Shown piece after piece: positions 24,462 to 32,756 of a DNA stretch of 64,000 nucleotides (positions are counted from its first letter, which is position 1; the number at the start of each line of letters is the position of its first letter). The notes beneath the pieces are model-generated. The model worked only from the letters and a program-made list of their open reading frames with translations. It was not told the DNA's origin and ran no database searches. Origin of the DNA: Roseithermus sacchariphilus. Lineage in GTDB: Bacteria; Bacteroidota; Rhodothermia; Rhodothermales; MEBIC09517. The position numbers and the translations under genes are program-made. The stretch spans positions 3,768,449 through 3,832,448 of the forward strand of contig CP030158.1 of assembly GCA_003285105.1 (NCBI GenBank), given 5' to 3'.

Positions 24462-25409
24462 TCACGCGTCCGCCGGCGAAGGAGGATCGGGCTGGTACGG
24501 GAAGACGACGACCGGACCATCGGCCCGGCGCAGCACCTTTTCGAGGACACTCCCCGGACCGGCCCGCTCGCTGCGTTCCCGGCGCGTGCGGGCCAGCGCG
24601 AGGAGGTCGCCCGGCTCGGTGGCCGCCACGAGTTCGCGGGCGACGTCCTCTCCCTCGCGGACGAGGAAGCGAGCCGGCACGTCGGGGCCGCCGGCGTTCT
24701 CGAAGAGTTGTTCGAGGGCCGCCGGCACACGGGCCACCAGGTCCGGGTCCGGAGCCACCGTCTCGATCATGAACAGCCCGGTGTCGTAAGTGACGACCAT
24801 GTGGCGATGTTCGGCCACGTGGAGCAGCGTCAGCGGCACGCCCAGGGCGGCCGCCCACGTCCGGGCCGGCTGCACCGCCTGCTCGGCGGCCGGGGAAAAG
24901 TCCTCGGCCAGCACCAGGCGGCGCACCGCCGGCGGCGAGGCCCCGGCCGTCGACTCGGGCGCCGGGACGACCACGACGGGGCGGTCCGACCGCCGCACCA
25001 GCGCTTCCGTCGTGCTTCCGACGCGCCGCCGCCGGAGCAGGCCACGGTGCCGGTTGCGCCCCACCACGAACGGCCCCGCCTCGTCCAGCGAACCGGCCAG
25101 CCGTAGCAACGCCTCCGCCACCGGACCCCGCTTGAGCACGACCGGTTCGACTTCGACGCCGTCGAGGTCGTGGCGGCGCAGGGCTTCGGCCAGCAGCTCT
25201 CCGACGACGTCCTCGGGGGTGGCGCCCAGGGCCCGGGCTTCAGGGGTATACCGGAGCGGACTCAGCGGCCCCGTCTCGAACGGCTCGATGACATGGACCA
25301 GGCGAAGCCGCCCGGCACCCCGCCGCGCAAACTCCAGCCCGCAGGCCAGCGCCCGATCGGCCGCCTCGGAAAAGTCGGTGGGGACGATGACCGTATCGAA
25401 GGGATGCAT
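24462..25409 (-). CDS. Universal stress protein, two-domain
   Basis: 315 residues made of two UspA domains. The first (residues 1-152) starts FDTVIVPTDFSEAADRAL and contains a well-kept ATP-binding motif, VGRNRHRGLLRRRRVGSTT (G-2x-G-9x-G-S/T). The second (about 160-310) starts RRLVLAEDFSPAAEQAV and has a degenerate version (ALARTRRERSERAGPGSV), so only the first is expected to bind ATP well. Cytoplasmic; sits between grpE and the HdeD-like gene. Confidence 0.93.
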   Translation of the reverse strand: MHPFDTVIVPTDFSEAADRALACGLEFARRGAGRLRLVHVIEPFETGPLSPLRYTPEARALGATPEDVVGELLAEALRRHDLDGVEVEPVVLKRGPVAEALLRLAGSLDEAGPFVVGRNRHRGLLRRRRVGSTTEALVRRSDRPVVVVPAPESTAGASPPAVRRLVLAEDFSPAAEQAVQPARTWAAALGVPLTLLHVAEHRHMVVTYDTGLFMIETVAPDPDLVARVPAALEQLFENAGGPDVPARFLVREGEDVARELVAATEPGDLLALARTRRERSERAGPGSVLEKVLRRADGPVVVFPYQPDPPSPADA

Positions 25410-25446: not shown

Positions 25447-26013
25447 TTACGAGGCGACGACGACCTTCGCGTGACGCAGGATGCGGTCGCCCATGCGATA
25501 GCCTTTCTTCACCTCCGAGAGCACCGTACCGGCCGGCACCCCCTCGGGAGCCGGCTGTTGCATCACCGCCTCGTGCTCCTCCACGTCAAACGGTTTTCCG
25601 ACGGCCTCGATCGGCTCCACGCCCAGCTGCCGGAGGGCCTCGGCAAACTTGTGATGGATGAGTTCGACCCCCCGCTGGAGCGACTCCTGATTCGATGACG
25701 GAGACGCCCCCGCCGCCGAGGTATCATCCTGTTGCCGGACGGATTCCAGCGCCCGCGTCACATCGTCATAGAGGTCCAGGAGGAGGTCCAGCATCTGCTG
25801 TCGGCCGGCCGCCACGAGCGATTCCCGCTCCTGAGCCGCCCGCCGGCGGAAGTTCTGGAAGTCCGCCGCCGTGCGCAGGAGCTGCTGCCGGACGGCATCC
25901 AGATCCGCCTGCAGTTGCTCGACGGTGACCTCGGCCCCGTCCCCGTCCACGGTGGTAGAGGCCTGTTCATCGGGAGCACCCGATTGCGGGCCACGCACAT
26001 CAGATTCCATCAT
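25447..26013 (-). CDS. grpE: Nucleotide exchange factor GrpE
   Basis: 188 residues, the usual size. The N-terminal 40 residues are acidic and disordered, then a long coiled coil (VEQLQADLDAVRQQLLRTAA, DFQNFRRRAAQERE) and the C-terminal beta domain (PFDVEEHEAVMQQPAPEG, GTVLSEVKKGYRMGDRILRH). GrpE releases ADP from DnaK. It follows the DnaJ-like gene read in the opposite order along the strand: dnaJ-like is upstream. No dnaK lies in the window. Tandem ATG at the start; the first is chosen. Confidence 0.97.
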   Translation of the reverse strand: MMESDVRGPQSGAPDEQASTTVDGDGAEVTVEQLQADLDAVRQQLLRTAADFQNFRRRAAQERESLVAAGRQQMLDLLLDLYDDVTRALESVRQQDDTSAAGASPSSNQESLQRGVELIHHKFAEALRQLGVEPIEAVGKPFDVEEHEAVMQQPAPEGVPAGTVLSEVKKGYRMGDRILRHAKVVVAS

Positions 26014-26082: not shown

Positions 26083-27063
26083 TCAGAGCACCCCGTGGGT
26101 CCGGGCCCAGTCGCGCAGGGCCGTACGGGCTTCCTCGCTCAGGTCGCGCGGCACGTCGACGACGATCCGCACGAGCAGGTCGCCTTTGCCCTTGTCGGTT
26201 TCGACGCCCTGGCCGCGCAGCCGCAGCACATCGCCCGGCTGGGTGCCCGCAGGGATGTTGAGCCGCACCTTCTTGCCGTAGGCGTTTTCGATGCGGCGCG
26301 AGGTTCCGAGCATGGCTTCCACGGCGTTGATATGCTCGGTCACGTGCAGGTCATCGCCCTCGCGGCGGAAGCGGGGATGCGGCTCCACCTCGAAGGTGAT
26401 GTAGAGGTCCCCGCGGCGGCCATCCGTACCGGGCTGGCCGCGGCCACGCAGGCGCACCTTCAGGCCGGGACGCACGCCGCGGGGGACGTCGATGCGCACC
26501 GTCTCGCCCGTTGGCAGCGTCACCGTGCGTTTACCGCCCTGGAGCGCCTCGTCGAAGCTCAGCCGGAGTGTGGCTTCCACGTCGCGACCCGGCGTGCGGC
26601 CGGACCGCCGCCGCCCCCGCGACGCGAACGGGTCGGACCGCCGGGGCTCGCGCTCGCCGAAGAGGCTGCTGAAGAGGTCACCGATCCCCCCGAAGCCGTC
26701 CTCGTCGCCGAAGATGAAGCCGGCATCGGGGCCGGACCCGGCCGTCTCGACCCGCACGTAGGTGCCGTCCGGGGCTCGGTAGAAGCGCGCCCCGCCTTCC
26801 CGACCGGCTCCGCTGAAGCCGGAGAAGGGGCTCCCGGCGAACGGGTCCTTTCGCTGCCGGTCGTACTCCGCACGGCGCTGAGCATCGCCGAGTACGTCGT
26901 AGGCCTCCTGCACCTCCTTGAAGCGCTCCTCAGCCTCCGGATTGTCCGGGTTGCGGTCCGGGTGATATTGCCGGGCCAGCTTCCGGTAGGCCTTCTTGAT
27001 CTCCGCCTCCGAGGCGTCCTCGCTCAGGCCCAGCACCTTGTAATAGTCTTTGATGGCCGGCAT
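26083..27063 (-). CDS. DnaJ/CbpA-type co-chaperone without zinc finger
   Basis: 326 residues. The J domain occupies residues 5-70 with HPD in RQYHPDRNPDN. A Gly/Phe-rich linker follows (FSGFSGAGREGG), then the substrate-binding C-terminal domains (GRDVEATLRLSFDEALQGGK, VDVPRDLSEEARTAL). The four CxxCxGxG zinc repeats of classical DnaJ are absent, so it is class II (CbpA-like). It stimulates DnaK ATPase. It precedes grpE with a 69-bp gap, implying co-transcription. Confidence 0.95.
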   Translation of the reverse strand: MPAIKDYYKVLGLSEDASEAEIKKAYRKLARQYHPDRNPDNPEAEERFKEVQEAYDVLGDAQRRAEYDRQRKDPFAGSPFSGFSGAGREGGARFYRAPDGTYVRVETAGSGPDAGFIFGDEDGFGGIGDLFSSLFGEREPRRSDPFASRGRRRSGRTPGRDVEATLRLSFDEALQGGKRTVTLPTGETVRIDVPRGVRPGLKVRLRGRGQPGTDGRRGDLYITFEVEPHPRFRREGDDLHVTEHINAVEAMLGTSRRIENAYGKKVRLNIPAGTQPGDVLRLRGQGVETDKGKGDLLVRIVVDVPRDLSEEARTALRDWARTHGVL

Positions 27064-27257: not shown

Positions 27258-27698
27258 TCACGAGATCTCGATCCGACGCGGCCGGGTTTCTTCCCGCTTC
27301 GGCACCTCGATGGTGAGGACGCCGTCTTTCATGTGGGCCTTGACCTTCTGCGTGTCGCTGGCCTGCGGCAGCGTGAAGCTGCGGAAGAACCGCCCGTAGG
27401 AGCGCTCCACACGGTGGAGGTTCTCCTTCTTCTCTTCGTGCTCGGACTTCCGCTCGCCGCTCACGGTCAGCGTGTCGTCACGCAGCTCGATGGTGATGTC
27501 TTTCTTCGAGAGCCCCGGCATGTCCATGCGCAGGACGTAGTGGTCATCCGTCTCGGAAATGTCGGTGCGCGGAGCCCACAGGGCCGTCATCTGCTCGCCG
27601 TCCTCGGTGCGGAGCAGATCATCGAAGATCCGGTCGATCTCACGACGCAGGCTGGTGAAGGCCGGCATCGTGGGGGTATAACGCATCAGGCTGCTCAT
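27258..27698 (-). CDS. Small heat-shock protein Hsp20
   Basis: 146 residues with an alpha-crystallin domain. The N-terminal arm (RREIDRIFDDLLR) is followed by the crystallin core (ISETDDHYVLRMDMPGLSKK, DITIELRDDTLTVSGERK) and the C-terminal I-x-I anchor (IEI in RRIEIS). It holds unfolding proteins in an ATP-independent way. The ATG giving MSSLMRY was chosen because it has an almost ideal AAAGGAGGTGA ribosome site; an open frame extends eight codons upstream through that site. Confidence 0.97.
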   Translation of the reverse strand: MSSLMRYTPTMPAFTSLRREIDRIFDDLLRTEDGEQMTALWAPRTDISETDDHYVLRMDMPGLSKKDITIELRDDTLTVSGERKSEHEEKKENLHRVERSYGRFFRSFTLPQASDTQKVKAHMKDGVLTIEVPKREETRPRRIEIS

Positions 27699-27704
27699 AT
27701 CGTT

Positions 27705-27766
27705 CACCTCCTTTCTCACTGGTTTTCGCTTCGGTTCGAAGGGTGTTCAGCGGGGATGATCCCGCT
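27705..27766 (-). promoter_or_regulatory. Structured leader of hsp20, possible RNA thermometer
   Basis: In the minus-strand transcript an AGCGGG/CCCGCT hairpin (27749-27766) is followed by CACCCTTC (27738-27745), which could pair with the ribosome site GAAAGGAGGTG (27705-27715) with a bulge. A competing CTTCG/CGAAG mini-hairpin lies between. Thermometers are common in hsp20 leaders; here it is inference only. Confidence 0.3.
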
Positions 27767-29058: not shown

Positions 29059-31020
<1,962 letters not shown>

Positions 31021-31104: not shown

Positions 31105-32265
31105 ATGATGACCTGGATAGATGCACTGATCGACCAACTGGACCGGGTCGATGCGCCGGTCCTCTCTCTGTACCTGGACGTCAACCCGGCCCATGCCGAC
31201 AACCTGAAGGAAGGCTACCGCATTCGCACCGAAAACGCGCTGAAGTCGGCCGGCGCACCCCGGGCGCTCCTCGACGCGATCCTGGCGCATTTCACGGGCG
31301 ACCCTCCGCACCGCCGCGGGCGCACGCTGGTGCTCTTCGCCACCGAGGACCCGGACGCCCTCTTCGAGGTCCACTATCTCCAGGTGGACCTGCCGCTGAC
31401 CGCGGAGGGGGATCGCGTCATCGCGCGCTGGGGGGCTCCCTACGTGGCTCCGCTGCTCCTGGCACGCGACGACTACGAACGCTATGCCGTGGTCTACATG
31501 GACCGGACGCGCTGGCGGTACTACGAGGTCTACCTGGGCGAGATCGCCGAAGTGCAGGAGGCCTTTCTGGACCTGGACACCGAGGCGTGGCGGCGGATGA
31601 CCGAGCCGACGGCCGGCTCTCCGGCCCTTCCGGCTGCCGGAGGCGGACAGGACCTCTACGAGGCCCGCGTCGAGGCCTGGGTGCATCGCTTCTACAAGGA
31701 CACCGCGGCCCTGCTGGAAAAGGCCCTGGCGGCCCGGGATACGCAGCGCCTGATCCTGTGCGGCCCCGAGGAGCCCCGCATCGCCTTCGAAAAGGTGCTG
31801 CCCCGATCGGTTCAGGACAAGGTGGTGGCGCGTCTACCCGGCCTGCCGCATCCCGATGCGTCACCGGCCCAGGTGCTGGCCCACGTCGAGGACGCCATCG
31901 AGGCGGCGGAACGGGCCGGTGAGATGGCCCTGCTGGAGCGCATCCGGGAGCGGGGCGTTCGGGGCCTGGCCGACGTGCTGACGGCCCTGCAGGGCGGGCG
32001 CCTCTTCACGGTGGCCGTACCGTGGTCGTTCGAGGCGCTCGCCAGGACGGTCTACCGCTGCCCCGTGACGGGCTTCGTGGGGGCGGATGAGGCCACGATA
32101 GAGGCCGTCTGCCCGCCGGGCTCGTCGCCGCAGCCGGTTCGTCTGGACGACGTGCTGCCGGAGCTGGCCCTGTCCCGCGGCACCCGCCTCGAATTCGTCC
32201 GTGGCGAGGCCGCGCGATGGCTCACCGAGGAGATGGGCGGCATCGCCGGCCTCCGCCGCTGGTGA
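31105..32265 (+). CDS. Bacterial eRF1-like (baeRF/VLRF1-type) protein with GGQ motif
   Basis: 386 residues, cytoplasmic. The N-terminal domain begins VLSLYLDVNPAHADN, typical of bacterial archaeo-eukaryotic release-factor-like proteins. The central eRF1 domain 2-like region (about residues 125-255) contains YYEVYLGEIAEVQEAFLD and, in the expected loop, GGQ at residues 180-182 followed by a helix DLYEARVEAWVHRFYKDTAA. The last third matches the pelota/L7Ae-like domain. In eRF1 and Vms1/VLRF1 this loop releases the peptide from tRNA. Function in bacteria is not established; a ribosome-rescue or rRNA/tRNA role is inferred. Next to ftsH. Confidence 0.8.
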   Translation: MMTWIDALIDQLDRVDAPVLSLYLDVNPAHADNLKEGYRIRTENALKSAGAPRALLDAILAHFTGDPPHRRGRTLVLFATEDPDALFEVHYLQVDLPLTAEGDRVIARWGAPYVAPLLLARDDYERYAVVYMDRTRWRYYEVYLGEIAEVQEAFLDLDTEAWRRMTEPTAGSPALPAAGGGQDLYEARVEAWVHRFYKDTAALLEKALAARDTQRLILCGPEEPRIAFEKVLPRSVQDKVVARLPGLPHPDASPAQVLAHVEDAIEAAERAGEMALLERIRERGVRGLADVLTALQGGRLFTVAVPWSFEALARTVYRCPVTGFVGADEATIEAVCPPGSSPQPVRLDDVLPELALSRGTRLEFVRGEAARWLTEEMGGIAGLRRW

Positions 32266-32334: not shown

Positions 32335-32756
32335 ATGCCCTCCCATCGCCGACTCCCCCTGCTGTCGTTCCTGCTGATCGTCGCCCTCGCCTCCGGATGC
32401 GGCCTCTTTGGCGGCGAAGACGAGGAGCCGCCGGCCGAGGTGGTCATCGAAGATCTGGAGGTGGGCACGGCCCCGCCGCCGCGCCGGGCCAGACGCTGAC
32501 GGTGCACTACGTGGGACGGCTGGAGAACGGCACCACGTTCGACTCCTCGCGGGATCGGGACCAGCCGTTCACCTTCGTGCTGGGGGATCCGCGGCTCATC
32601 CAGGGCTGGAACGACGGCATCGTGGGCATGCGGGAGGGCGGCCTCCGTCGCATCACCATCCCACCCGCACTCGGCTACGGCGCCCGCGGCTCCGGCTCCA
32701 TCCCGCCCAACGCCACCCTTATCTTCGAGATCGAGTTGCTGGACGTAGCGGACTGA
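32335..32756 (+). pseudogene. FKBP-type peptidyl-prolyl isomerase lipoprotein, frameshifted
   Basis: The first frame encodes a lipoprotein signal with lipobox ASGC, then GLFGGEDEEPPAEVVIEDLE and VGT, before running into a stop at 32497-32499. The continuation is found in another frame: GPAAAPGQTLTVHYVGRLEN through YGARGSGSIPPNATLIFEIE, a complete FKBP domain (about 90 residues) ending at 32754-32756. One base is missing in the GC-rich run near 32467-32480; adding one G restores VGTGPAAAPGQ, the normal FKBP consensus. It is either a true frameshift or a sequencing error. An internal start in the second frame would give an untargeted FKBP. FKBPs speed proline isomerisation during folding. Confidence 0.85.

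Follow-up and report, generated by a model that had tools for sequence, protein, structure and literature searches.

The gene under study lies in a stretch of 64,000 nucleotides of the Roseithermus sacchariphilus genome (hereafter the window), where an intact open reading frame with an ATG start (31105-32265, plus strand) encodes a 386-residue protein assigned by PF18854 and NF052288 profile matches, PDB searches and structure comparison as a baeRF family 10, Balon/Msmeg1130-like protein. It lies 84 nt downstream of ftsH (29059-31020, plus strand; FtsH_ext, AAA and peptidase M41 domains) and is followed by genes for an FKBP-type peptidyl-prolyl isomerase (32397-32756, plus strand) and a cation efflux protein. 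A gene for a YegS-type kinase and a stress cluster run divergently from ftsH, the latter comprising, all on the minus strand, hsp20 (27258-27719), a dnaJ-type co-chaperone gene (26083-27063), grpE (25447-26013) and usp, encoding a universal stress protein (24462-25409). The linkage to ftsH noted at the outset is borne out, and it lies in a proteostasis and stress cluster, with usp, grpE, dnaJ and hsp20 close by. In genome G010, which carries the nearest orthologue retrieved (73% identity), ftsH also precedes the gene, and an ORF that reads as thioredoxin-like from its sequence, with no search behind the name, follows it. Scans between ftsH and the gene, covering promoters of the sigma-70 type only, returned neither a promoter resembling that type nor anything like a terminator, and the segment of 66 nt formed by the ftsH end and the gap has an unremarkable fold (z -1.44), so that co-transcription is no more than conceivable. 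The genome holds one PF18854 gene, one SmpB gene, two RF-1-domain genes and a single HPF/RaiA-domain gene, the last located at C1:3838964-3839251, near the gene but not adjacent to it, some 6.5 kb after the window ends.

The protein is built of three domains, all encoded on the plus strand: an N-terminal domain (residues about 1-111, 31105-31437), bounded by the start of the PF18854 match; a middle domain with the aeRF1 domain-2 fold, covered by that match (residues 112-265, 31438-31899); and a C-terminal domain with the Pelota/eRF1 domain-3 fold, ending in GGIAGLRRW and delimited by alignment, PDB profile match and structure comparison (residues 266-386, 31900-32262). A sequence scan found no NIKS motif in the protein, the N-terminal domain included. 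Within the middle domain, a Gly/Ala-rich loop equivalent to the eRF1 GGQ loop (residues 170-183, 31612-31653) ends in the single GGQ of the protein (residues 180-182, 31642-31650; loop sequence GGGQD) and leads into a helix (residues 184-210, 31654-31734) that carries the conserved R188. The reading frame, the triplet, the Arg-bearing helix and the neighbouring ftsH are thus all present as originally predicted. The triplet alone is weak evidence, because GGQ is common in this GC-rich window, occurring in 21 of 83 stop-to-stop frames that run to 300 codons or more, and arises in 3.8% of 20,000 shuffles of the protein. The gene itself is real beyond chance, since 29 homologues, drawn from several phyla, align along its length.

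The PF18854 match (baeRF family 10; E 4.8e-39, 134.3 bits against a gathering cut-off of 27.1) establishes family membership, and baeRF families 5, 2 and 12 also match, more weakly. The NCBIfam model of the MSMEG_1130-family ribosome hibernation factors, NF052288, aligns to residues 10-386 of 386, with scores far below the equivalog cut-offs both for this model (63.9 bits against 480) and for NF052289 (51.6 against 320); by sequence, the protein is a relative and not an equivalog of these two families. At E values up to 0.001, NF052288 and PF18854 each match all 30 members of A2, the homologue alignment on which our profile and the AlphaFold2 model are based, and the Rv2629, aRF1_eRF1 and AOC03_06830 hibernation-factor models match 23, 13 and 5 of them, respectively. 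Searched against the PDB, the A2 profile retrieved the Balon Msmeg1130 first (E 4.2e-24, profile positions 7-383), with eRF1s behind it (best E 3e-11). The profile was needed for this search: a single-sequence phmmer run gave one match at E 1.8, which is not useful. Assignment to VLRF1 was rejected, since the window protein drew no VLRF1 match at E values of 5 or lower, in a search whose HMMER filters drop most weak matches, and the loop reads GGGQD where GxuQ or GGxSQ is expected; acVLRF1 matched one of 30 clade members (E 6.7e-4). Assignment as a class-I release factor of the aeRF1/eRF1 type was rejected as well, given the lack of NIKS and the rarity of GGQ in the clade described below.

The AlphaFold2 model (mean pLDDT 89.2, pTM 0.82) gives the same picture. 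The six top Foldseek ranks are all Balon chains, as are the six top VIA-align 2 ranks, and the three-domain aeRF1-like fold is thus nearest to the solved Balons: VIA-align 2 aligned the model to Msmeg1130 (8v9l) with Z 26.6 and 3.8 Å over 347 residues, to the Psychrobacter urativorans Balon with Z 21.8 over 333 residues, to Rv2629 with Z 19.2, to eRF1 with Z 16.4 and an rmsd of 8.7 Å, and to Pelota chains with Z about 10. Identity to the solved Balons is just 16-22%. Fold and PF18854 membership together confirm an eRF1-like protein of a bacterial family, as originally predicted, and the description of this group as poorly studied is outdated, as the closest solved structures are those of Balon hibernation factors. 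Model confidence falls below pLDDT 50 at residues 170-180, and the GGQ stands at the end of this mostly disordered loop, just before helix 184-210, which is where an eRF1-type loop would place it; judged from the disorder in the model and not from its coordinates, the loop is probably exposed rather than buried. The shared superfamily fold, with its Pelota matches, also brings to mind a non-catalytic rescue factor of the Pelota/Dom34 kind, which would promote the splitting of stalled ribosomes with a GTPase partner. The proteostasis neighbours would suit such a role, and so would a catalytic Gln that is not conserved, as described for Dom34 (PMC6514570), but Balon chains are far nearer in both sequence and structure, making this an unlikely explanation.

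Loop conservation was followed in 51 clade members, defined as sequences scoring above 200 bits against the A2 profile: 118 sequences were reduced to 76 by removing duplicates and contained entries, and 25 below 200 bits, belonging to other PF18854 lineages, were then dropped. The 51 rows omit some of the members found: of the 69 matches from the phylum to which a Thermus genome belongs, the best 30 became loci. A contiguous GGQ is found in the window protein and in none of the 50 other members (1/51). The catalytic-loop Gln, noted as well conserved in PF18854 (PMC6514570), is borne by the window protein but varies across the clade, the column holding Q in 21 members, T in 11, K in nine, R in four, P in two, and F, A, H or a gap once each. 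By contrast with this column, the following residue is D in 45/51, and the R188 position is R in 48/51 and K in 3/51. The closest orthologue carries GTGHD, and two others (37-39% identity) differ again. The Thermus clade (18 rows, six of them Thermus by name and the others placed in the same clade) has GGAGQ or GGADQ in 18/18 rows, including L058-L061, L069 and L072, and outside it Q is borne by the window protein, L076 and L119 (three of the 21). In a quick tree, built with the loop columns excluded, supported by SH-aLRT only and with several long branches flagged, four Trueperaceae/Truepera proteins, all with K, form the sister group of the pair made up of the window protein and its orthologue, which bears H (SH-aLRT 97), and at least four changes between Q and non-Q are needed. 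Because the nearest relatives carry H and K and at least four such changes occur, the window protein's Gln is most simply a recent and independent outcome, and descent of this Gln and the Thermus Gln from a common ancestor is unlikely. For the Thermus-clade Gln itself, selection or shared recent descent are both conceivable. The GGQ of the window protein is probably incidental, a chance result of drift in a Gly/Ala-rich loop. The catalytic GGQ announced as intact finds no support in the alignment of homologues: it is not kept in orthologues.

The clade is patchy, comprising two near genomes of the window's order, Thermus, Meiothermus, Trueperaceae and few others. PF18854 was found at E 1e-8 in 20/244 in the class, and matches to the window protein at E 1e-10 in 6/394 in the phylum; the A2 profile, at E 1e-60, matched 69/111 in the phylum of a Thermus genome, 1/194 in that of a cyanobacterial genome and 4/247 in that of a Bryobacteraceae genome. 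No paper dealing with this particular clade by title or abstract came up in our literature search. Ten reference proteins of the window genome were searched for at 34 homologue loci, whose flanks are of unequal length and among which L084 and L085 carry the same genes as L053 and L054. Twelve had a match (Hsp20 in nine, DnaJ in six, GrpE in four, FtsH in two), ten of them in Thermus or Meiothermus: Thermus locus L058 reads grpE, dnaJ, clpB, a ferritin-like gene, the homologue and hsp20, and in Meiothermus L063 a usp gene comes after the homologue. HPF matched at none of the 34 loci, and 22 had none of the ten proteins, among them Trueperaceae L055, which at the Pfam level nevertheless has lonB and two usp genes ahead of the homologue.

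These data bear on the function first proposed, an active peptidyl-tRNA hydrolase that would insert its GGQ into the peptidyl-transferase centre and free stalled nascent chains, with FtsH degrading the membrane products. Q182 does align with the catalytic position, ahead of the Arg-bearing helix, ftsH lies directly upstream both in the window and at the 73% orthologue, and family 10 has been proposed to hold active members (PMC6514570). Against this, the triplet is confined to one clade member, the 73% orthologue and the sister clade have H and K in its place, FtsH recurs at two loci only while the other neighbours are mostly not ftsH, and the genome already holds two RF-1-domain proteins and SmpB. 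A role in peptidyl-tRNA release or rescue is unsupported, and we regard it as improbable. Still more doubtful is the idea of a stress protein peculiar to its lineage, with the aeRF1 fold retained but its action on the ribosome lost: the patchy distribution and the divergent loop lengths would fit, but residues are conserved between phyla in all three domains, including the Asp and Arg close to the loop.

The reading that we consider likely is that the window protein is a stress factor of the Balon/Msmeg1130 type, within the baeRF-1 group, that occupies the ribosomal A site. Burroughs and Aravind (2019) defined baeRF-1, noted its linkage to HPF and singled out family 10 for its retained, well-conserved Gln and possibly active members (PMC6514570). 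Helena-Bueno et al. (2024) report that Balon binds the A site with EF-Tu, that Balon, Rv2629 and Msmeg1130 have neither NIKS nor GGQ, and that Balon genes often adjoin those of RaiA, Hsp20 and DnaK/DnaJ (PMC10901736), and an archaeal study separated Balon from aeRF1 by the absence of NIKS and GGQ (PMC13324472). The family, the fold, the stress-gene neighbours of the Balon-typical kind (Usp, GrpE, DnaJ, Hsp20 and FtsH) and the failure of relatives to conserve the catalytic Gln and Gly were observed directly; A-site binding, EF-Tu contact and hibernation are expected by analogy with Balon. That the genome encodes one HPF also fits this reading. Under stress, the window protein would enter the A site, its N-terminal domain expected at the decoding centre and its middle-domain loop near the peptidyl-transferase centre, where it would not hydrolyse peptidyl-tRNA, and its C-terminal domain would touch EF-Tu, keeping ribosomes idle and protected. 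Several observations speak against the Balon assignment, namely the scores below the NCBIfam cut-offs and the low identity to solved Balons, the Gln at the catalytic position together with its retention throughout the Thermus rows, the naming of PF18854 as a possibly active family (PMC6514570), and the non-adjacent HPF with 22 of the 34 loci free of the searched proteins. Least probable of all is a dual role in which, here and separately in Thermus, a Balon-type factor kept or regained a working Gln, releasing the chain, parking the ribosome and handing membrane products to FtsH.

A separate PF18854 paralogue was noticed at eight loci of the window's order (L013, L017, L018, L019, L020, L022, L023 and L032) and at L128 (genome G632, which shares its phylum with a Thermus genome). 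Its GGWSQKRY loop is invariant in 9/9 sequences and is followed by an Arg-rich helix, the two proteins scanned match acVLRF1 and eRF1 domain 2, and the L128 copy has a CxxC..CxxC pair in its C-domain. This paralogue is a much better candidate than the window protein for a bacterial peptidyl-tRNA hydrolase of the aeRF1 type. Seven genomes of the window's order (G011, G021, G032, G039, G046, G053 and G202) hold two PF18854 copies, and where such copies were aligned, a GGWSQ loop is present in one and missing from the other, which suggests a catalytic-like and a non-catalytic member within one cell.

Taken together, our results place the window protein and its patchy clade beside Balon, and show that one GGQ triplet does not by itself argue for release activity in a bacterial aeRF1-like protein. 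With VLRF1/Vms1, the window protein shares the aeRF1 superfamily (PMC6514570) and differs by the lack of a VLRF1 match at E values up to 5. It has the superfamily fold of aeRF1/eRF1, but lacks NIKS and a clade-conserved GGQ and is a much weaker structural match. Its middle domain is that of baeRF-1 family 10, although the GGWSQKRY loop of other PF18854 members is absent from its clade. The P. urativorans Balon (8rd8, 8rdv, 8rdw) is alike in fold and in the stress-gene context described for Balon genes (PMC10901736), and different in its 16% identity and in that RaiA is not adjacent to the window gene. Msmeg1130 (8v9j, 8v9l; NF052288) is set apart by an identity of about 21%, by a score of the window protein below the equivalog cut-off and by the latter's GGQ triplet and longer loop, but aligns over the full length, with the same order of three domains, a similar LRW C-terminus and, as reported for Msmeg1130 (PMC10901736), no NIKS.
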